Shown piece by piece: positions 5,958-22,210 of a stretch of DNA of 23,640 bases. The notes under the pieces are model-generated. The model saw only the letters and a list, made by a program, of their open reading frames with translations, searched no databases and had not been told where the DNA came from. The stretch spans positions 1 to 23,640 of IMG/VR virus record IMGVR_UViG_3300046011_004936; one strand, 5' to 3'. The position numbers and the translations under genes were made by a program. Numbering within the stretch: the stretch's first letter is position 1; the number at the start of each line of letters is the position of its first letter. The stretch is from a virus.

Positions 5958-5974
5958 GGGTGTTACGGGAAAGG

Positions 5975-6433
5975 ATGAAAGTCCTTTCCCTAGCACTGCT
6001 GGTTGCAGTCTGCGCTTTTCCGGCAGCCGCCCAGGCTCCCGATACCGTCATCGACAGCATCCGCACCGAGACAACCGCGGCGGCTGAGGCGCGGATCACC
6101 TGGCTTGCTTCGACCGATCGCCAATGCGCCCAACTGGCAACCTCCGAGGGTCACACCGACGCGGCGTTGCAGATCGTCATGCAGTGGAGCGCGAGACTGA
6201 GTTCACCGTCCAGCGGTCGCACATCGCAGTGGCTGGCCGGCAAGGTCCTGGACGCAGGCGGACCCATGGTCGCCAGCAGTATGCTGCAGCTGGGTGACAC
6301 CTATCTGGCCGGTAAGTGCGCCAACGAAGCGAAGAGGGTCTATCAGCAAGTGATCGCCACCTTCACCGGGTCCAACTACACTGCCTACAGGGAGCTGGCT
6401 TCCGAAGGTCTCGCAGACATACGAGCACTGTAG
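5975..6433 (+). CDS. Small Sec-exported protein of unknown function between tape measure and M
   Basis: The ATG at 5975 gives 152 residues beginning with a classic signal peptide: basic N-tip (MK), hydrophobic core, and a likely cut after AAAQA near residue 21. A GTG at 5960 is also in frame, but it would put five residues (two of them Arg) before the signal; GGGAAAGG just before 5975 can serve as ribosome site. The mature part of about 131 residues is helical, with two cysteines (in RQCAQ and GKCANE) that could pair in the periplasm. Its C-terminal third, around LGDTYLAGKCANEAKRVYQQ, looks like one or two TPR-type helices. Lambda has no gene here between H and M. No enzyme motif is seen. Possible roles are superinfection exclusion, a periplasmic chaperone or an envelope modifier; these are inference. 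Confidence 0.72.
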   Translation: MKVLSLALLVAVCAFPAAAQAPDTVIDSIRTETTAAAEARITWLASTDRQCAQLATSEGHTDAALQIVMQWSARLSSPSSGRTSQWLAGKVLDAGGPMVASSMLQLGDTYLAGKCANEAKRVYQQVIATFTGSNYTAYRELASEGLADIRAL

Positions 6434-6490
6434 CCAACAGTTACCGCTTTGCTTTAGCTTACTCGACGGCGCTGTGGTCTCACGACCACG
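6434..6490 (+). promoter_or_regulatory. Gap with a perfect 6-bp hairpin touching the start of the M-like gene
   Basis: This 57-base gap is one of the few real spacers in the tail block. It contains GTGGTC (6474-6479), loop TCAC, GACCAC (6484-6489), one base before the ATG at 6491, with a possible extra G-U pair at 6473/6490. No U-run follows, so it is not a typical terminator. No clear Shine-Dalgarno sequence is seen, and the hairpin occupies the place where one would lie. The segment around 6441-6463 is less GC-rich than its surroundings and could hold a promoter, but I cannot name -35 and -10 boxes with confidence. A translational control hairpin is the simplest reading. Confidence 0.4.
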
Positions 6491-7937: not shown

Positions 7938-8223
7938 ACGCTGCGGCTTCATCCTCGCGTCTGGCGAGATCGTCGAATGTACCAACATCTGTCCCGACCC
8001 GGCCCAAGGCTTCGAGGTCGGAGACTTCGACCTCGACCGGTACATCGATGACGCCGTCGCCACCTGGCACACCCACCCGGGCGACACCCGTCTCCTCTCG
8101 GTTGGAGACTACGAGACCTACCGGGGGATGCCGGACCTGATGCACTTCATCGTCGGCACTGACGGCCTCGCCGCCTACGTCGTCGACAGGGACGCGGTCC
8201 TCGACCACGCGCTGCCGGAATGA
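7876..8223 (+). CDS. JAMM (JAB/MPN) metallopeptidase, N-terminal half of lambda K as a separate gene
   Basis: The start is taken as ATG 7876, giving 115 residues; an upstream GTG at 7816 would add 20 Arg/Ser-rich residues unlike the family. The JAMM zinc signature is complete: Glu21 (NERCGFIL), His65 and His67 (TWHTHPGD), Ser75 and Asp78 (LLSVGDYE). In lambda K and relatives this domain heads the protein and is joined to NlpC/P60. Here it is encoded alone and downstream. It overlaps the NlpC/P60 gene by 62 bases, an unusually long overlap for this operon. The bases upstream offer only a weak ribosome site (GGAG about 14 bases before), so coupling to the previous gene is likely. The stop overlaps the next ATG. 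Confidence 0.88.
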   Translation: MFEPNSNQLQTLRGYLSGENERCGFILASGEIVECTNICPDPAQGFEVGDFDLDRYIDDAVATWHTHPGDTRLLSVGDYETYRGMPDLMHFIVGTDGLAAYVVDRDAVLDHALPE

Positions 8224-8831
8224 TGCGCGTCAGGGTCCACCTCCGCGGGTCGCTTCGCTCCATCCATGATGGCGTGATCGAGGTCGTCGCCGAGACGGCG
8301 GCCGAAGCCATCGACGCCGTGACCAGCCAGCTGCCCGGCTTCAAGCCCGACGCCAACGGGCGCAAGTCCATCAGGGTCGGCGGGCACCCGACGGAAGCGT
8401 CCCTCTACGAGCCGCTCGAGACGACTGATCTTCACCTCTTCCCGCAGATGGCGGGCGGCAAGAAGGTCGGCGTCGTTCAGATCGTGATCGGCGTCGTGTT
8501 GATCGTCGCGACCATCTTCTCGATGGGCGGTACAGCAGGCTTCTCTGGCGCCTACGGGGCCGTCCTGGCGGGCGGTGGCACCTTCGCCCAGACGCTGGCC
8601 GTCTCGGTCTTCATGATCGGCGTCTCCACGGCCATCGGTGGCTTGGTCTCACTGCTGATGCCGGCCCCCGGCACGGATAGCCGCAAGGGACAGGCCGACA
8701 GCGCCTACCTCGGCCCAGGCCGGCCTACGGTCGCCATCGGTACGCCGATCAGGGTGATCTACGGCTTCCGCCGGGTCGCCTTCCACATCCTGGCCGTCAA
8801 CATCAACGCGTCCAATACACGGATCTACTAG
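8220..8831 (+). CDS. Tail assembly protein I-like
   Basis: A 203-residue protein of the lambda I type. It opens with a ubiquitin-like strand/helix unit (VRVHLRGSLRS, then AAEAIDAVTSQLPGF, a helix followed by a loop) seen in this family. A long Gly/Ala-rich hydrophobic stretch follows (VGVVQIVIGVVLIVATIFSM to VSTAIGGLVSLLM, about residues 82-145). It ends with NVNINAS-like residues (VNINASNTR). Lambda I helps build the tail tip between K and J; the position here is equivalent. Two start codons are adjacent (ATGATG at 8220); the first overlaps the JAMM gene stop. In lambda, J follows directly, but here a phosphoesterase gene comes next and overlaps the stop (TAGTG). Confidence 0.82.
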   Translation: MMRVRVHLRGSLRSIHDGVIEVVAETAAEAIDAVTSQLPGFKPDANGRKSIRVGGHPTEASLYEPLETTDLHLFPQMAGGKKVGVVQIVIGVVLIVATIFSMGGTAGFSGAYGAVLAGGGTFAQTLAVSVFMIGVSTAIGGLVSLLMPAPGTDSRKGQADSAYLGPGRPTVAIGTPIRVIYGFRRVAFHILAVNINASNTRIY

Positions 8832-10453
8832 TGAACCTGAGCCAAGTCCCCCACGTCGAGCTGCTCAAGATGGTGCGCAAGGCGGGGGGGCAACGCTCCT
8901 TTGCTCGCAAGAACAACATCCCGCGCACCACGCTGCAGAAGTACCTCAACAAGGGGCGCATTGATCCCTTCGGCCACCGGCCGGCGCCGACCGCGCTCCA
9001 GGCCCCCGCCGGCAGGAGCCGGTTCATCCTCACATCGGCCCAGGACTGCACGCTGGTCCACGACGGCTTCCTGAGCAATCTGGAGGCCTACCGCGACCAT
9101 CTGGCGAAAGACGCGCCCTGCGAACTGATGATCGCCGGCTTCACCTACAACAAGAAGCTGTTCGAGAGCCACGCGAAGCACCAGACCCTCTACCACGAGC
9201 GGGTCACACCCTACCTGGTGGATGAGCGGTTCAGGATCGCCGACCAGGTGGATTTCTGCGGCGAGATGAACACCCTCCCGACCGCTGTCCGACCGCTGTC
9301 GGACTTCCAGACCTACACCCGCGAGCGCTGGGGCATCTTCCCTCACGCCAAGGTCCAGCTGGTCAGCGTCGCGACGATGAAGAACGCGCCACCCAAGCAG
9401 ATCATGACCACCGGCGCGGTGACCATGCCCAACTACATCGCGAAGAAGGCGGGCCTGAAGGCCTCCTTCCACCACGTCTACGGCGCGGTGTTGGTCGAGG
9501 TCGACGACGACGGGACCTTCTTCTGCCGGCACCTGATCGGCGATGAGCAGGACGGGTCATTCTATGACCTGGACGCCTTCGTCTGCGACGGCGAAGTCAG
9601 CCTTGACCACCGCCTGGATGTGTTGGTCCCCGGTGACATCCACGTCGCCCAGATTGACCCGACGATGTCGCGGCTGCTCTTCGACTACTGGCCGACCGAA
9701 GGCCGGGACATCGTCGGCAATCGCCGCTGGAAGCACGGCCTCACCGGCACGTCGATGCTGGACGTGATGAAGCCCAAGCACCTCATGATCCATGACGTGT
9801 CGGACTTCCGGGCTCGGAACCACCATGAGATTGCCGATCCCCATACGCGCTTCACCCACCACATCCAGGGCGTCGAAGCCGTAGAGGCCGAGCTGCGGGA
9901 GGTGGCCGAGTTTCTGAAGGCCATCGAGCGCGACGGCACCCGCGTCGCCATCGTCGACAGCAACCATGACCAGGCGCTGCTCCGCTGGCTGAAGACCGCC
10001 GACTACCGCACCGACCCGGTCAACGCCCGCTTCTTCCTGCAGTGCCAGCTGGCCACCTACGACGCCATCGCCAACCGGGTGTCGTCCTTCTCCGTCTTCG
10101 AGCACGTCATGCGCCGGCACTTCACCGGCGCCAACCTCTCCGCGCAGACCGTCTTCCTCCGTGAGGACGAGAGCTACGAGGTGGGTGGCGTGGAGCAATC
10201 CAACCACGGGCACCGCGGCGCTAACGGCTCGCGGGGCGGCCTGGCCGGCTTCGCCATCATGGCCTCCAAGGTGAATGTCGGGCACGCACACAGCCCCGGG
10301 ATCCAGGACGGGGCCTACCAATCCGGCACCACCTCGCTGCTCGACATGCACTACAACAAGGGGGCGTCATCCTGGGCTCACACGCTGATCGGCCAGTACC
10401 TCAGTGGTAAACGAGTGCTGATCACCGTGATGAACGGCAAGTGGCGGATATAG
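8831..10453 (+). CDS. HTH plus calcineurin-like metallophosphoesterase inserted between I and J
   Basis: A 540-residue protein starting at GTG 8831, overlapping the I-like stop by one base. Residues about 10-43 form a helix-turn-helix of the kind that reads GGQRSFARKNNIPRTTLQKYL. The second half carries metal-binding motifs of calcineurin-like phosphoesterases: GDIH (Asp269, His271), HDVSD (residues 321-325), SNHD (377-380, the family's GNHD), SNHGH (457-461), and GHAH (484-487). The product is probably a Mn- or Zn-dependent phosphodiesterase, perhaps a nuclease, guided to DNA by its N-terminus. HTH-phosphoesterase fusions recur in phages without a settled role. No structural motif explains its place in a tail cassette. 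The following gap has a long inverted repeat. It could be a selfish insertion, a host-takeover nuclease, or a DNA-processing enzyme. Confidence 0.78.
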   Translation: MNLSQVPHVELLKMVRKAGGQRSFARKNNIPRTTLQKYLNKGRIDPFGHRPAPTALQAPAGRSRFILTSAQDCTLVHDGFLSNLEAYRDHLAKDAPCELMIAGFTYNKKLFESHAKHQTLYHERVTPYLVDERFRIADQVDFCGEMNTLPTAVRPLSDFQTYTRERWGIFPHAKVQLVSVATMKNAPPKQIMTTGAVTMPNYIAKKAGLKASFHHVYGAVLVEVDDDGTFFCRHLIGDEQDGSFYDLDAFVCDGEVSLDHRLDVLVPGDIHVAQIDPTMSRLLFDYWPTEGRDIVGNRRWKHGLTGTSMLDVMKPKHLMIHDVSDFRARNHHEIADPHTRFTHHIQGVEAVEAELREVAEFLKAIERDGTRVAIVDSNHDQALLRWLKTADYRTDPVNARFFLQCQLATYDAIANRVSSFSVFEHVMRRHFTGANLSAQTVFLREDESYEVGGVEQSNHGHRGANGSRGGLAGFAIMASKVNVGHAHSPGIQDGAYQSGTTSLLDMHYNKGASSWAHTLIGQYLSGKRVLITVMNGKWRI

Positions 10454-10543
10454 ACCCAAGACTTAGAACCGACCCCACCAAGTTCGCCTCGACCTTCTAA
10501 CCTTGGGCCCCGCATACCCTGTTCTCAATCTCCTGAGAGCAGC
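10454..10543 (+). repeat. Non-coding gap with a long interrupted inverted repeat upstream of J
   Basis: The largest plus-strand gap (90 bases). CCCAAG (10455-10460) and TTAGAA (10463-10468) pair with TTCTAA (10495-10500) and CTTGGG (10502-10507), giving 12 base pairs with a 2x1 internal bulge and a 26-base loop. The left arm begins two bases after the phosphoesterase stop. No U-run follows, so an intrinsic terminator is not supported; an operator, RNA-processing site or junction scar are alternatives. A short GAGAG at 10535-10539 can serve as the ribosome site for the J-like gene at 10544, and TCTC/GAGA (10522-10525/10535-10538) could form a small hairpin over it. Confidence 0.55.
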
Positions 10544-13500
10544 ATGTCGAACTTCCGCGGACGGAAATCTGACGAACCGTACTACATGCGGGACACTATC
10601 CGCAGCACGGATACCATCGAGGCCATCCTGGGCGTCGGTGAAGGCGAGAACTTCGGTCTCGCCCTGGGCCCCAAGTCGCTCTACCTGGGCAAAACCCCGC
10701 TGGTGAACTCGAACGGCGAAGCCAACTTCAATGGCTTCTCGCTCTCGGAATACACCGGTACTGCCCTCGGCAATCCGATCACGCCGAGCCTCGGTGGCTT
10801 CGGTTCACCGCAGACCGTGCAAGTCAACCTGGCGCACAACTCGACCGTCACCCGCCAGGGTGTGTTGACCCAGTACGACTACATGGACCTGCGGTTCGTG
10901 ATCTCGCAGCTGGTCTGGAACAAGGACGATGGGGCGATAGCGCACGAAGCGCTGATCCTGATCGAGCAGAAGGCATCCAACTCAGCAACCTGGCTCCCGG
11001 CCGAACTCGGTGAGACCGAGCAGCCCTACGCCGGCACATTCACCGAGGGCGCCACCGGCGCCACGTCGGGCTACGAACTGGTCAGCACCGGCACCGGCGG
11101 CGTCGGCGGCACCGGAGTCGGCGGCGTCACGCAGGTTGTGACGTTCCCGAACGACGGGCCCATCATCTACCAGTCCGAGACCCCCGGAGCCCCGAGCATC
11201 CCGGGCACCATCTGGATCAACATCTCTGGCCAGCCGAACCACTTCACCGGTGCCGGCTGGGCGCTGCTGGACCCTGACGGCGGCGTCGCCTGGGACGAAA
11301 CCACGCCGCCCGACATGGACGATGATGGTATCCCCGACGGGTCCGACCCGGACATGGACGGCGATGGCACACCCGACCTGGTCGATGTCGATGACGACAA
11401 CGACGGGATCGACGACGAGCCCGATCCCATCCTGCCCGAGTGGGTGTCCTACGGCCAAGTCCGCTACTACAAACCCGCCCTGGTCCCTCCGTCGAACCTC
11501 GATGGTGTCCCCATCGGCTCGGTCTTCGTCCCGATGTCGACGGCTCTGCCGCCCCGCCAGTGGAATGGCAGCAGCTGGGTAACGTCGGCGCTCGAAGACC
11601 TCCCGTCTCTGGGTCTGCCGACCCCTGCGGGCGTGCTCCGCATCTATGACAAGGTGACGAGCCCGGTTGTCCGGGAAATCCGCATCAAGCTGTCACGCAG
11701 GTCGGTTCCTACGGACGTCCGCGTCACGCTGAAGTCTCCCAACACCTTCGGCGGTGGTAAACGCCTGATCACCATTGGGTGGGAGAGCTTCGAAGAGATC
11801 GCAGCGGTCTCGCGGATCTTCCCGAACACTCACATCCTCCACCTGGTCGGCAAGGCCAGCGATCAGCTGAACGGCTTCCCCGAGATGGAGGGGGACATCA
11901 AGGGTCGCATCGTCAAGGTGCCGACTAACTACGACCCGATCACGCGGACCTACGCCGGCGTGTGGGACTTCACCTACAAGCTCGCCTACACCGACAACGG
12001 CGCGTTCTGCACGCAGGACTTCGTCGAGAGCACGCGCTACGGCCTGAGTGCGCTCTACCCGCAGACGGTCAACAAGTCGGCCTTCTACGAATGGGCCCAG
12101 TGGTGTGACGCGCCGGTGCCGAACGGGCAGGGCGGCACCCGCCCGCGCTGGACCTACAACGACGACCTGGCCGAGCCCCGCGCCGCCAAGGAGCAGTCGC
12201 AATACATGGCCGGCGCTTGCGGCGCCCGCCTGATCGACGACGGCAGTGGCAGGGTCGATGTCCTGGTCGACCGCGACGAAGAAATGTCCATCGTCTTCGG
12301 CCCGCAGAACGTGGTCGACGGGGAGTTCATCTACAGCTTCACCGACATCCAGACGCGAGCCAACTGGATCAAGGTCGGGTTCATGAACCCGGCCCTGGAC
12401 TGGGTCGCCGACTACCGCGTGGTCAAGGACCAGGCCCACATCGACGAGTTCGGGCGTATCCCGATGTCGATGATCGCGGCCGGCAAGATCAACGAGTCCG
12501 AGGCCCTGGCATCCGCCCGCCTCCGACTGGTCACCAGCACGACCGAGACCACGATGGTCACGTTCCGAACCAACAGGCTCGGAAAGTTCCTGAAGGTCTT
12601 CAACATCATCGGCATCTGCGATGAGGACATGGGCTGGGGCATCGGCGGGCGTATCCGCGCGAAGGTCAGCGCACGTAGCGTCACCCTCCGCGACGCCATC
12701 ACGCTCGAGGCCGGTGTCACCTACACCGCCACCTTCAACTACGCCGCACCGGCTGAGCTGGAAGGGGAGTCGGTCGTCGGCGTCATTGAGCTGCCGATCA
12801 CCTCGGCGGCCGGCACCCACACCACGCTGACGTTCGGCGCCGACCTGCCGGCCAACCTGCCCGAGTTCGCCCAGTTCTCCCTGAACGCCCCGAACCAGAT
12901 CGGTGTCCCCAAGCCGTTCAAAATCCTCAGCATCGTCCGCGCCGACGGCGACGGTGAAGCTGTCGAGATCATGGCTCTGGAGCTAAACCGCAACAAGTGG
13001 GCCTACGTCGACGGGACCATCGACGACATCATCCCCGTCATCGACGGGGTGAACTACAACGGCCCGGTCGCCCGCGTGGGCGGCATCGGCATGTCGGTGA
13101 ACATCCGGCAGTCGACCGGCTCCATCGAACGCGCGCTGCAGATCGTCTGGGAAGCGTCGTCCAATCCGATGACCCAGCGGGTCGAAGTGGAGATGTCGCG
13201 GGACGGCAACCACTTCGCCCTCATCGGCTCGTCCGTCACCGACTTCTTCGAGCTGCCCAACGTCGACTCGGGCATCTACTGGCTTCGACTGACGCGCGTC
13301 CACATCGACGGCCAGCGCCGCAGCCAACCGCAGCTCGCCATGCACCAGGTCGAGAGCGACGTTCGCTCCGTCCCGCCGGTCATGGCCCTGACCCTGGTCG
13401 ACGAACTCAGCAACACGGTCTCGACTTCCACCCAACCGAAGTTCGGCTGGCTGCACGGCGACATCGATCCGAACTTCAAACACTACCAGGTCCAAATCCT

Positions 13501-16500
13501 GGATCCGACGACCTCGGCCGTCCGACGCACGGTCACGACCCCGCTCCGGGAGTTCGTCTACGACTTCGACATGCAGAAGGCTGATGGAGCTGGCGTCGCC
13601 GCCCGTTCCTTCAAGGTCTCGGTCACGAAGATCGACGACTTCGACAACGCTTCGTATGCCAAGACCCTGTCGGTCACGAACCCGACCCCCGCCGCGCCGG
13701 TCCTGACGCTCACTGAAGCCATCGGTGGCGTCACCGTCACGCTGGCGCCTTCGGTGGAGCGAGACGTCCTGGGGGCTCTCCTGTGGCTCTCCACGACCAC
13801 GGGTTTCGACCCGGTGGTCTTCAGCCCAACAGAGGACGCGAACCAGCAGTCCTGGTTCATCGCCGTGCCGACCGGTGAGACCCGCTACGTCCGCGCCGCC
13901 TACTATGACGCCTACGGCAAGGAAGCATCGGGCCTGAACATCTCGGGGCAGGCTTCGTCCTCGACCCTGACCGTCACCGCCGATGATCTCTCGCCCGAGC
14001 TGGTCCAGGAAGGGACTGACGCCGCCGAGGCTCACATGCTCGACGCGATCGATCGCATCGAGCAGGCGGTCACCACCGAACGTGCCGGCCTGATCAACGG
14101 CAAGCCGGGGTCTTACGTCCTGGCCAAGCAGATCAGCGACGAAGCCGTGACCCGCGCTCTGGCGCTCACCAGCGAAGCTACCGCCCGTAGTACCGCCATC
14201 GCGACCGAGGTGACCAACCGCGCCGCGGCGATCCTGGCCGAGACCAACGCCAGGGGCACCGCCGTCACCAATGAGGTGACCGCTCGGACTGACGCCGACA
14301 CCGCGTTGTCTGGCCAGATCAGCACGGTTGCCGCCAACCTCTCGACGGAGACCACCAACCGCACCGCCGCTGTGACCGCAGAAGCTGACGCACGCGCCTC
14401 GGCTGACACGGCTGAGGCGACAACCCGGAGCCTGCTGGCTACTCAGGTACGCGGGGCCTACACCGGCAACGACCTGACCCTGGTCACGACCGGTCTGATC
14501 TACTCGGAGCGTACCGCACGCACCAACGCCGACAACGCCCTGGCCACTCAGATCACGCTGCTGACGGCCGGCGCCGGCGAGCAATTCGACCCACTGAAAA
14601 TCTGGTACTTCGACACCAGCGTCGAAGGCTGGGACGGCAACGGCACGCCCGTCGCCACGGCTGGTTGGCTGCGGCCGGCGAACCACGCCAGCGCGGCTTA
14701 CGTCTTCTCGGCAGTCGGCATCGCCGCTGACTCGTCGAAGTACAGCCAGGTTCGTATGCGCGTCCGCAAGACCGGTGCGCCGACCTGGGCCGGCTTCCTG
14801 TGGTGGAGAGGTGTCGGTGACACCACCTGGGACGCGGCCCGCCGCGTTGCCCTGACCGCGCCGACCTACGACGCAAACGGGATCGGCCTGGTCACCGTCA
14901 GCCCGACCTGGACCGGCACGATCGATCGGATCCGGGTCGACATGTCGGCCGCCCAAACCGCGACCGATGCGCTGGAACTGGACTGGGTCTCCATCGGTCG
15001 GCCGTCGCCGGGTGCGTCGAGCGCCGCTCTGCTGGAAGAGCAGACCGCCCGCGCCAACGCCGACAGCGCCATCGCGACCGACGTCCTCACCTTGACGGCG
15101 ACCGTGAGTGGCAACACCAGCGCAATCACGGCCGAGCAGACCGCCCGTACCAACGCCGACGCTGCCGAGGTCACGTCTCGCCAGGCGCTGTCCGCGAAGC
15201 TGACCGGCCTGAACAACCCGGCCGCCGCAACCCTCGCTGGCCTGACTGCTGGTCTGGTCTTCGACGAACGCACCGCCCGGGTCTCCGCGGATGGTGTCTT
15301 GGCGACTGCGACCGCCCTGGTTCAGGCAAACCTGAACACGACCAACGCCAACGTCACCAGCGAGCAAACTGCCCGCGTCAACGCCGACAACGCTCTGGCG
15401 AGTGACATCTCGACGGTCACCGCGACGGCCAACGCCAAGAACAAGACGTTCCGCCAGGCCACGGCACCCGCTTCGGGAATGATCACCGGCGACGTCTGGT
15501 ATGACAGCGACGACTCGAACAAGCCGTACCGCTACGACGGCAGCACCTGGACGGCCACCGACGATAGCCGCATCGCGGTCAACACCTCGGCCTTGACCAC
15601 CGAGACCAACGCCCGGGTCAACGCCGACGCCGCCCTGACGACCACGATCAATAACGTCTCGGCCGTCGCCAACGCCAAGAACAAGAGCTTCCGCCAGGCC
15701 TCTGAACCTACGACCGGCATGACCAGCGGCGACATCTGGTTCGACAGCGACGACGCGAACAAGGCCTACCGCTTCGACGGGTCGATCTGGGCGGCCACGT
15801 CCGACACCCGGATCGCAGGCAACGCGGCTGACATCATCACCGAAGCCGCGGCACGCGCGACTGCGGTCAGCGCCGAGGCAACCGCGCGACAGGCGCTGTC
15901 AACGAAGCTGACCGGCCTGGCTGATCCGAGCGGAGCTACGCTCGCGGGTCTCTCGGCTGGCCTGATCTACGACGAACGCACCGCCAGGGTCAGCGCCGAC
16001 GGGGCTTCGGCGACGCTGATCACCGCGCTGCAAACCCTGACCGGCACCCATACCTCCGACATCGCGACCGAGATCACGGCGCGAACCAGCGCCGACGCCG
16101 CCGCGGCGAGCCGGATCGACAGCCTGTACGCCGGCCTGAACCCGCTCGCGGGCTACAGCTTCGATCCGACCCACCAACTATGGCCGGTCGCCAACCCGCT
16201 GCCGACCAACATCATCGCCAGCGGGACGGCGCCGATCACCACGCGGGTCACCACCGGTCTGATCTACGGCGAGAAGGCCCTCAAGGGAGCCGCCATCGCG
16301 GTGACCCCGACCGGCTACCAGCGCCAGGCCGCTTCGATGAAGCCGTCGGCGGCGCCGGCCGCCGGGTACGTCGTCTGTGAGTGGGAAGTCACCGTCAACG
16401 CGGGCGACCTGAAGCGCGCCGGCTTCGAGTACCGCCTCAACTATACCAGCGGCTACAAGCGCGCCGTGGTCGAGCTGTTCGCCCAACACGCAACGGTCGC

Positions 16501-17443
16501 GGTCGGCCAGACCTACCGAGGAAGCAAGCTGGTCCAGCTGACCGACGTCTCATCGTCGGGTTCGATCGTCGACCAGACCGACTTCCTCTGGCTGAACAAT
16601 GCCAGCCTGTTCCCGAGCCAGACCACCTCGGTGAAGACGCTGACCTTTCACAAGGTCTTCTGGCGCGAGGCGACGGCTGAGGAAGTGGCGGCTGGCGTCA
16701 CCCTGCCGACCGTCTCAGCTTCCGTCGTCACCAACGCAGCAGCCCTGGTGGACATTAACGGCCGGATGTCGGCGACCTGGGGCGTGGAGCTGAACGCTGG
16801 TCTACGGGTCGCCGGGATCAGGCTGCAAACGGAAGGTGGCGGCGGCACCGTCATTTCGTCGTTCGACGTCGAAGCTGACACGTTCCGCGTCTGGAACGGC
16901 GCTTCGCTGACCCCGGCCTTCGAAGTGTCGGGCGGCGCGGCCTACGTCGGCGGCAACCTGGTCCGCACCGGCAGCGTGCAGTTGGGTGCGCTCAGCTCGA
17001 TCCAGGCCCAGGTCACCGAGACCCAGACCGACATTCCCCACTGGACCACCAGCAAAACACACTTCGGCCAGCTCGACAGCTTCACCTTCACCAGTTCGGG
17101 CGAAGGTAAGGTCTTCATCCAGTGGACCGGCACCATCCAGTGGAACCGGGCCGGCGCCAACCTGGCGGCGATCTATCTCTGCTGGGGAACCTTGTCCCCC
17201 TACCATTCCAGTGGTGATGACCCGATCGTTCGGGACATCCCAATGACGTTGGGCTGGCTCTCCCGCGCCGTCGCCCGCGGCAACGCCAACTCCCAGGCCC
17301 ACAGCATGACGCTGTCGCACCTCGGCACGTTCCCGGCCGGCACCCATACGGTGAAAGTCTGGGGTCACAGCGACATCAACACCAGTGCGCTGCCGGTCTC
17401 CGACGTCGGCAAGTCCTTCCTGATCATGGAGATCAAGCGATGA
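10544..17443 (+). CDS. J-like tail tip attachment / central fibre protein
   Basis: A 2299-residue protein, about twice lambda J (1132). The N-terminal part matches J: DTIRSTDTIEAILGVGEGE and KSLYLGKTPL near the start, RIVKVPTNYDP (455-465) and AYTDNGAFCTQDF. Between them residues about 257-290 hold Asp-rich DxDxDGxxD repeats of thrombospondin type-3 style, a likely calcium-binding insert. Fibronectin-III-like strands follow (about 860-1140). From about 1160 the protein is fibre-like: Ala/Thr/Glu helical repeats (TEVTNRAAAI, TNEVTARTDAD), a jelly-roll-like insert (about 1350-1490), a duplicated Trp/Asp module, a second beta insert (about 1865-2040), and a C-terminal beta domain (about 2165-2299). 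It should close the tube, bind the receptor and trigger ejection. The stop overlaps the next start. The weak ribosome site follows a structured gap. Confidence 0.93.
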   Translation: MSNFRGRKSDEPYYMRDTIRSTDTIEAILGVGEGENFGLALGPKSLYLGKTPLVNSNGEANFNGFSLSEYTGTALGNPITPSLGGFGSPQTVQVNLAHNSTVTRQGVLTQYDYMDLRFVISQLVWNKDDGAIAHEALILIEQKASNSATWLPAELGETEQPYAGTFTEGATGATSGYELVSTGTGGVGGTGVGGVTQVVTFPNDGPIIYQSETPGAPSIPGTIWINISGQPNHFTGAGWALLDPDGGVAWDETTPPDMDDDGIPDGSDPDMDGDGTPDLVDVDDDNDGIDDEPDPILPEWVSYGQVRYYKPALVPPSNLDGVPIGSVFVPMSTALPPRQWNGSSWVTSALEDLPSLGLPTPAGVLRIYDKVTSPVVREIRIKLSRRSVPTDVRVTLKSPNTFGGGKRLITIGWESFEEIAAVSRIFPNTHILHLVGKASDQLNGFPEMEGDIKGRIVKVPTNYDPITRTYAGVWDFTYKLAYTDNGAFCTQDFVESTRYGLSALYPQTVNKSAFYEWAQWCDAPVPNGQGGTRPRWTYNDDLAEPRAAKEQSQYMAGACGARLIDDGSGRVDVLVDRDEEMSIVFGPQNVVDGEFIYSFTDIQTRANWIKVGFMNPALDWVADYRVVKDQAHIDEFGRIPMSMIAAGKINESEALASARLRLVTSTTETTMVTFRTNRLGKFLKVFNIIGICDEDMGWGIGGRIRAKVSARSVTLRDAITLEAGVTYTATFNYAAPAELEGESVVGVIELPITSAAGTHTTLTFGADLPANLPEFAQFSLNAPNQIGVPKPFKILSIVRADGDGEAVEIMALELNRNKWAYVDGTIDDIIPVIDGVNYNGPVARVGGIGMSVNIRQSTGSIERALQIVWEASSNPMTQRVEVEMSRDGNHFALIGSSVTDFFELPNVDSGIYWLRLTRVHIDGQRRSQPQLAMHQVESDVRSVPPVMALTLVDELSNTVSTSTQPKFGWLHGDIDPNFKHYQVQILDPTTSAVRRTVTTPLREFVYDFDMQKADGAGVAARSFKVSVTKIDDFDNASYAKTLSVTNPTPAAPVLTLTEAIGGVTVTLAPSVERDVLGALLWLSTTTGFDPVVFSPTEDANQQSWFIAVPTGETRYVRAAYYDAYGKEASGLNISGQASSSTLTVTADDLSPELVQEGTDAAEAHMLDAIDRIEQAVTTERAGLINGKPGSYVLAKQISDEAVTRALALTSEATARSTAIATEVTNRAAAILAETNARGTAVTNEVTARTDADTALSGQISTVAANLSTETTNRTAAVTAEADARASADTAEATTRSLLATQVRGAYTGNDLTLVTTGLIYSERTARTNADNALATQITLLTAGAGEQFDPLKIWYFDTSVEGWDGNGTPVATAGWLRPANHASAAYVFSAVGIAADSSKYSQVRMRVRKTGAPTWAGFLWWRGVGDTTWDAARRVALTAPTYDANGIGLVTVSPTWTGTIDRIRVDMSAAQTATDALELDWVSIGRPSPGASSAALLEEQTARANADSAIATDVLTLTATVSGNTSAITAEQTARTNADAAEVTSRQALSAKLTGLNNPAAATLAGLTAGLVFDERTARVSADGVLATATALVQANLNTTNANVTSEQTARVNADNALASDISTVTATANAKNKTFRQATAPASGMITGDVWYDSDDSNKPYRYDGSTWTATDDSRIAVNTSALTTETNARVNADAALTTTINNVSAVANAKNKSFRQASEPTTGMTSGDIWFDSDDANKAYRFDGSIWAATSDTRIAGNAADIITEAAARATAVSAEATARQALSTKLTGLADPSGATLAGLSAGLIYDERTARVSADGASATLITALQTLTGTHTSDIATEITARTSADAAAASRIDSLYAGLNPLAGYSFDPTHQLWPVANPLPTNIIASGTAPITTRVTTGLIYGEKALKGAAIAVTPTGYQRQAASMKPSAAPAAGYVVCEWEVTVNAGDLKRAGFEYRLNYTSGYKRAVVELFAQHATVAVGQTYRGSKLVQLTDVSSSGSIVDQTDFLWLNNASLFPSQTTSVKTLTFHKVFWREATAEEVAAGVTLPTVSASVVTNAAALVDINGRMSATWGVELNAGLRVAGIRLQTEGGGGTVISSFDVEADTFRVWNGASLTPAFEVSGGAAYVGGNLVRTGSVQLGALSSIQAQVTETQTDIPHWTTSKTHFGQLDSFTFTSSGEGKVFIQWTGTIQWNRAGANLAAIYLCWGTLSPYHSSGDDPIVRDIPMTLGWLSRAVARGNANSQAHSMTLSHLGTFPAGTHTVKVWGHSDINTSALPVSDVGKSFLIMEIKR
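11312..11428 (+). other. Thrombospondin type-3-like calcium-binding repeats inside the J-like gene
   Basis: The segment encodes successive Asp-rich turns (DMDDDGIPDG, DPDMDGDGTPD, DVDDDNDGIDD) in about 39 residues. This DxDxDGxxD spacing is that of thrombospondin type-3 and related calcium-binding loops, known in bacteria from OmpA-like proteins. It sits in an insert between the first J-like block and the NYDP block. A calcium requirement for tip stability or adsorption is inferred. Confidence 0.72.
15179..15295 (+). repeat. Fibre module B, copy 1 (39 codons)
   Basis: This segment encodes RQALSAKLTG at the start and GLVFDERTARVSADG at the end. Bases 15887-16003 encode a near-identical module (RQALSTKLTG ... 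GLIYDERTARVSADG) with the same length and no gaps, 708 bases downstream. A more distant third copy of the last part (GLIYSERTARTNAD) starts at 14492. These mark internal duplication within the fibre part of the J-like gene. Confidence 0.85.
15431..15817 (+). repeat. Direct tandem duplication in the J-like fibre (period 240 bp)
   Basis: Two 147-base copies, 15431-15577 and 15671-15817, encode NAKNKTFRQA... and NAKNKSFRQA... followed by GDVWYDSDDSNKPYRYDGS and GDIWFDSDDANKAYRFDGS. The period is exactly 240 bases (80 codons), without gaps. The WYDSDDxNKxYRYDG signature is a small beta module often seen in phage fibres. The DNA copies differ at wobble and at some replacement sites, so the duplication is not recent. 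Confidence 0.88.
15887..16003 (+). repeat. Fibre module B, copy 2 (39 codons)
   Basis: The second copy of the module at 15179-15295. It ends with GLIYDERTARVSADG, which keeps ERTARxxAD in all three related copies, so that stretch is probably the start of a trimeric coiled-coil segment. The two modules bracket the 240-base tandem duplication. Confidence 0.85.
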
Positions 17444-20142: not shown

Positions 20143-20299
20143 GACGCTCACCGCCTACGGCACCGCCGAGGACCGGGCGAAGCTCGCCGTCCTGGCCGGC
20201 GACCGGTCGGTGAGCACCTGGCTGATCGACAAAATTCGCTCTGAATATCACCGACTCTACGGCGACACAGACCCCACAACCCTGCGTAAGTGTGGGTAA
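20132..20299 (+). CDS. Small ribbon-helix-helix-like protein
   Basis: The start is taken as ATG 20132 (55 residues), overlapping the previous gene by 11 bases; an ATG at 20060 would add 24 Arg/Cys-rich residues that only reflect the neighbour's other frame. Residues 5-44 follow the ribbon-helix-helix plan: a short strand (TLTAYG), helix A (AEDRAKLAVLAG), the turn DRSVS, and helix B (TWLIDKIRSEYHRLYG). This is the layout of Arc/MetJ/CopG-type DNA-binding proteins, which act as dimers. A DNA-binding regulator at the tail/lysis boundary could govern the lysis genes that begin 36 bases downstream. Its role is inferred; the fold assignment rests on pattern only. Confidence 0.6.
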   Translation: MRSETLTAYGTAEDRAKLAVLAGDRSVSTWLIDKIRSEYHRLYGDTDPTTLRKCG

Positions 20300-20334
20300 T
20301 GGCTACGCAAAGCGTCGTTCCCTAGACCTTTGGA

Positions 20335-22182: not shown

Positions 22183-22210
22183 AAGGCCCCGGACTCGCGT
22201 CCGGGGCCTT
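22183..22210. terminator. Strong hairpin terminator between convergent gene blocks
   Basis: AAGGCCCCGGAC (22183-22194), loop TCGC, GTCCGGGGCCTT (22199-22210): a perfect 12-bp GC-rich stem. Read on the minus strand, the stem is followed by TTTTTC, a good U-run, so it should end the ThyX cassette, 5 bases after its stop. Read on the plus strand only CTT-CATCTTA follows, so it is weaker for the lysis genes but could still work as the stem is strong. Confidence 0.9.

Follow-up and report, generated by a model that had tools for sequence, protein, structure and literature searches.

What role, if any, is played by the inverted repeat that directly follows the stop codon of a phosphoesterase gene in the tail module of this virus, just ahead of the central tail fibre gene J? 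The DNA analysed is a stretch of 23,640 nucleotides (positions 1 to 23,640 of IMG/VR record IMGVR_UViG_3300046011_004936), hereafter called the window. An earlier note on it had proposed three options for the repeat: a self-regulating operator bound by a neighbouring helix-turn-helix (HTH) protein, a processing site that separates the J message, or the boundary of an inserted element.

A T5 A1 homologue in the slot between I and J

The repeat lies in a 90-nt gap (10454–10543, + strand) that sits among overlapping genes, as most other genes of the tail module overlap by a few bases. Upstream, the stop codon of tail assembly gene I (8220–8831, +; lambda gpI-like; phrog_32 tail assembly protein, E 5.9e-29) is overlapped, as TAGTG, by the start of the gene that ends at the gap (8831–10453, +). 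The 540-aa product of the latter is a T5 A1-like DNA transfer protein, with an N-terminal HTH and a phosphoesterase-like domain: its match to the profile of phrog_1745, the PHROG 1745 to which bacteriophage T5 A1 itself belongs, extends over the full length (residues 34–539, E 8.2e-183), and it is 62.2% identical to a phiCbK protein. A Pfam search of this product returned no metallophosphoesterase match, and its predicted model gives weak Foldseek matches to solved metallophosphoesterases (best E 3.2e-3). The HTH protein that the earlier note placed next to the repeat has no gene of its own: the HTH forms the N-terminal part of the phosphoesterase (residues 8–41, the first three helices of the predicted model, pLDDT 89.8). 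Downstream, J (10544–17443, +; 2299 aa; phrog_31, E 5.6e-118) has a start and an N-terminus that are backed by alignment with the J of Seuss and of L089, the closest relative found. No statement on the gap before J was found in a literature search, and the genome paper of Seuss does not discuss the I–J boundary.

The position of this A1 gene differs from that of its counterparts. According to published descriptions (PMC7472727, PMC8541194), the T5 A1 gene belongs to the early-injected (pre-early) region and the phiCbK and KASIA counterparts lie near replication genes, whereas the A1 gene of the window stands between tail genes I and J. The T5 injection stop signal is also described as containing inverted repeats, palindromes and DnaA boxes (PMC13250531); the window resembles it in having inverted repeats near an A1 gene and differs from it in that its repeat is inside the tail module.

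What occupies the slot between I and J in relatives was determined with I and J as queries. Among 252 loci and the window, those without both genes were dropped and contigs that were nearly identical were collapsed only when they agreed over the 150 bases ahead of the I stop, leaving 93 distinct readable I–J junctions, window included. An ORF of at least 200 aa is present between I and J in 38 of these. The 336-aa HTH-metallophosphoesterase of L090 is matched by 24 of them (tblastn), and a further 10 ORFs were scanned, all of which match PHROGs with the annotation exonuclease or metallophosphoesterase (704, 284, 221 and 20266); the remainder are the A1 of the window and three unscanned ORFs (L183, L233 and L242). 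Thus 35 of the 38 could be assigned to metallophosphoesterase- or exonuclease-type proteins from several PHROGs, and many of them carry an HTH at the N-terminus (window 8220–10544; L090, L103–L117, L181–L237). The L090 protein itself matches phrog_7339 and Pfam Metallophos, and its predicted fold resembles the PolD DP1 and Mre11 nucleases (best E 6.7e-8). When A1 is compared by hhalign with the slot proteins of relatives, its HTH part alone aligns, with their HTH (probability 89%, E 2.1e-6). Near the J start, extra stretches of a few hundred bases are found in L167 (4485–4980) and L178 (3927–4350), which look intein-like by eye.

A T5 A1 homologue fills the slot in the window only, among the loci seen, which bears out the idea of the earlier note that relatives lack something present here. 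The reverse search agrees: when queried with an A1 alignment, viral contigs gave 153 stretches that encode a relative, and neither I nor J of the window is present at any of 90 A1 loci, that is, the best 80 of these 153 and 10 loci in bacterial genomes, with about 3 kb of flanks where available.

Two predicted hairpins in the gap

The repeat itself was recovered exactly as described, letters, coordinates (10455–10507) and 26-base loop included, with two corrections of detail. The A1 stop codon TAG (10451–10453, +) is followed by a single A (10454), so that what we call hairpin 1 begins one base, and not two, after the stop. Its 5' arm CCCAAG-AC-TTAGAA (10455–10468, +) and its 3' arm TTCTAA-C-CTTGGG (10495–10507, +), on either side of the loop (10469–10494, +), do pair, but what had been called a small bulge is a 2x1 internal loop between two 6-bp helices. 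The reported lack of a U-run also holds, the sequence downstream being CCCCGCATAC.

By itself, hairpin 1 is above chance to a modest degree. In two folding runs its energy gives z -2.16 (7 of 200 shuffles as good) and z -2.58 (17 of 1000 as good). Its pattern class, defined after seeing the case as 6 bp, an internal loop of up to 2x2 and 6 bp, with a loop of 3–40, is present in 2 sequences when the 90-nt gap is shuffled 5000 times; it occurs on average 1.08 times per dinucleotide-shuffled window (largest number 6, in 60 shuffles) and twice in the real one, and is therefore not rare window-wide. In absolute energy, 91.5% of the 62-nt stretches of the window (79% after GC correction) fold at least as stably as that of hairpin 1, which is thus weaker than most of the window, whose GC content is 65%. 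No match in the window to any of 4227 Rfam families was obtained with covariance models at the gathering score.

A second, stronger hairpin, overlooked in the earlier note, is responsible for the whole gap being well above chance. Hairpin 2 (10519–10542, +) consists of 9 pairs, one of them G-U, and a loop of 6, as CTGTTCTCA-ATCTCC-TGAGAGCAG, and a single base separates its end from the ATG of J. Taken alone, it gives z -4.4, with 1 of 1000 shuffles as good, and the whole gap gives z -4.3 and -4.5 in two runs, values reached by 2 and 0 of 1000 shuffles. The reverse complement of the gap gives z -0.67 (241 of 1000 shuffles), an asymmetry between strands that is partly due to base composition. 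Two other gaps between listed + strand genes reach 25 nt or more, and neither shows significant structure (6434–6490, z -0.54; 20143–20334, z -1.35).

The 3' arm of hairpin 2, TGAGAGCAG, includes GAGAG (10535–10539), the weak Shine-Dalgarno (SD)-like sequence of J. In the predicted ensemble these bases are paired: the stretch 10534–10541 has an unpaired probability of 0.02 in three folding contexts. The wider J site, from about -15 to -5, is no more paired than background (0.47 unpaired vs 0.40). The predicted pairing of hairpin 1 depends more on context, being 0.99/0.96 when the upstream A1 RNA is free, 0.32/0.24 when it is blocked and 0.23/0.07 with a ribosome on the A1 stop; because it falls to 0.07–0.32 once the upstream RNA is occupied, we have less confidence in hairpin 1 than in hairpin 2. 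A switch between the hairpins driven by the terminating ribosome was also considered and rejected: when the 5' arm of hairpin 1 is blocked, the SD-like bases of J stay paired, so that a coupling switch of this kind is not supported.

Other structured places were seen in the window. Directly behind the stop of the tape measure gene (5957), a hairpin GGGAAAGGATGAAAGTCCTTTCCC (5958–6010; z -5.6, 0 of 1000 shuffles) encloses the start of the following gene, with its likely ribosome-binding site (RBS) and its ATG (5975); by eye, the N-terminus of the product of that gene resembles a signal peptide. The 17-nt gap after the tape measure gene, taken with its flank, is significantly structured. At 22183–22210, a strong terminator-like stem of 12 pairs with a loop of 4 stands between convergent genes.

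The boundary before J in other lineages

In a search for covariation of the arms, neither the queries with I and J nor an exact-pattern scan of viral_contigs for hairpin 1 (0 matches) turned up a relative that shares this leader; a scan of viral_contigs with the single A1 protein likewise found no close relative of the window. At most I–J junctions there is no leader at all, as J overlaps or abuts the preceding gene. A script found 29 gaps of at least 25 nt before J, having skipped four loci (L145, L155, L167 and L177); 10 of these gaps were set aside because an earlier, overlapping J start is more likely (L117, L132, L141, L144, L152, L154, L163, L196, L222 and L246), and the 19 junctions kept were grouped by eye into 12 lineages, with crude gene calls.

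In 8 of the 12 lineages (7 of 11 without the window) the median z is lower than -1.5, vs 9 of 37 for other gaps of these loci. In a one-sided Mann-Whitney comparison, which is a small test on crude gene calls, this gives p 0.019 with the window and 0.035 without it, a weak indication that hairpins or true terminators are enriched before J across the lineages having a gap there. In particular L089, whose J is 47% identical and which has no A1, has a 57-nt gap before J and its own 13-bp hairpin across the I stop codon (z -3.29 for stop region and gap). The L108 and L109 groups, which are two families, have hairpins of their own, and L146, L220, L242 and L248 have, by eye, terminator-like hairpins with U-runs, the z value of L242 being rough since the assumed J start falls within its hairpin. 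The gap is without a clear hairpin in L142/L150, L221 and L235, and L237 has only a weak hairpin. In the family hairpin of L108, L110, L114, L198 and L215 (five aligned sequences and one variant), one pair is changed on both sides and two variants have a broken pair, a covariation signal too weak to use.

A putative leader of J and its rivals

The reading that we favour, tentatively and with a probability of roughly 40%, is that the gap 10454–10543 is a cis-acting RNA leader, which would uncouple J from the upstream gene and keep its translation low. Hairpin 1 would form in the tail-module mRNA directly behind the A1 stop codon, and the 90-nt distance would prevent a ribosome ending there from restarting at J, so that J, unlike most genes of the module, would not be translationally coupled. 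Hairpin 2 would hold the GAGAG of J in its stem, and the sequestered J would then be translated at a low, independent rate. Such a rate would fit a very large protein required in about three copies per virion, as is the case of J in lambda. Hairpins that control translation by sequestering the RBS occur in phage operons; that of the window is alike in that it is predicted to pair SD-like bases just before the start codon, and unlike in that the SD is weak and no trigger is known. That the hairpins form in vivo, that they reduce translation of J and that they act in any way on transcript processing or ends is inferred here from sequence and folding. The proposal of a site separating the J message is thus the one of the three original options that fits best, in the modified form of a translational and possibly transcript-level insulation that we infer.

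The main functional rival, because several relatives have terminator-like hairpins before J, is that hairpin 1 acts on the transcript, as a weak attenuator or as a hairpin that is processed by RNase or blocks decay, so that the J message is reduced or set apart. The U-runs of L146, L220, L242 and L248 at the same place speak for it, as do the internal terminators and intergenic stem-loops that are reported to set subunit ratios in clostridial ABC transporter operons (PMC9045158). The window shares with the systems described there a hairpin between adjacent operon genes whose products are needed in different amounts; its hairpin differs in having no U-run and in being known from sequence. Hairpin 1, with its loop of 26 and its tail CCCCGCATAC, does not have the make-up of an intrinsic (Rho-independent) terminator and looks different from the clear terminator-like stem at 22183–22210, and scans of 8000–12000 found neither a terminator-like site on the + strand nor a promoter-like site from which transcription could restart. 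We therefore regard an action on the transcript as improbable. Greater weight, if still on the doubtful side, is given to the possibility that the gap is simply a spacer left when A1 came into the I–J slot, with incidental hairpins that are not under selection. The absence of the arms elsewhere in viral_contigs, the 17 in 1000 shuffles that equal hairpin 1 alone, a pattern class expected once per window and an absolute stability that is ordinary for the window all agree with such a spacer; the two hairpins within one 90-nt gap, matched by 0–2 of 1000 shuffles, and the hairpins of other lineages at the same place argue against it.

Readings that involve the A1 protein or gene fare much worse. 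A self-regulating operator, whose arms would be bound as DNA half-sites by the HTH of the A1-like protein to repress or loop J expression, draws on the N-terminal HTH of the product and on T5 A1, for which binding of RNA polymerase and a shut-off of the pre-early genes have been reported (PMC7472727, PMC8541194). The half-sites of the window, however, are of unequal length (14 vs 13 nt) owing to an indel, badly tolerated by a DNA-binding half-site and easily by an RNA helix, so that the small internal loop suits an RNA stem better; their spacing of 39.5 bp does not correspond to an integral number of helical turns. The window contains no further half-site with at most one mismatch, and 8000–12000 no promoter-like site; the symmetric half-sites, repeated at regulated promoters, of a palindromic operator are not found at 10455–10507. 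An element linked to A1 was also sought and rejected: 84 distinct A1 3' flanks, 13 of them having z < -2 (the window has -1.91), show no common hairpin among those inspected, and no common motif was seen among the 14 best. We consequently judge an operator very unlikely. In L010 and L031, strong hairpins (z about -5) overlap or follow the A1 stop and are unrelated in sequence to those of the window.

We give hardly any credit to the view that A1 arrived on an inserted element and that the arms are its terminal inverted repeat or target-site scar. This would be in keeping with A1 filling the slot in the window only, among the loci seen. Both arms are, however, at one end of the gene, whose left end has no matching direct or inverted 8-mer (8701–8900 against 10401–10600), so that neither inverted repeats at both ends nor a target duplication are found; its GC and GC3 resemble those of the neighbour genes, and in many relatives the slot is taken up by other genes. 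The element boundary, as it had been put forward, is thus not supported. It is equally far-fetched, in our opinion, that the HTH or phosphoesterase domain of the slot proteins recognises or cuts the hairpin before J. If these proteins did act on the leader, a phage importing a T5-type A1 would have had to evolve a matching new leader, and the whole would form a self-contained switch between a DNA-entry protein and a tail fibre.

The two-hairpin gap is a real, modest feature, an ordinary kind of intercistronic leader that is mostly of local interest, and where there is a gap ahead of the central tail fibre gene, hairpins or terminators often mark off this boundary. More interesting than the hairpins is the position of the A1 homologue, as known from sequence comparison: relatives have other HTH-phosphoesterases in this slot. 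HTH-metallophosphoesterase genes often reside in the slot before J, and the gene found there in the window is homologous to T5 A1, a protein whose part in DNA entry is little understood; the presence of A1 in a tail module suggests that the protein might travel with the tail tip, or be timed with it.
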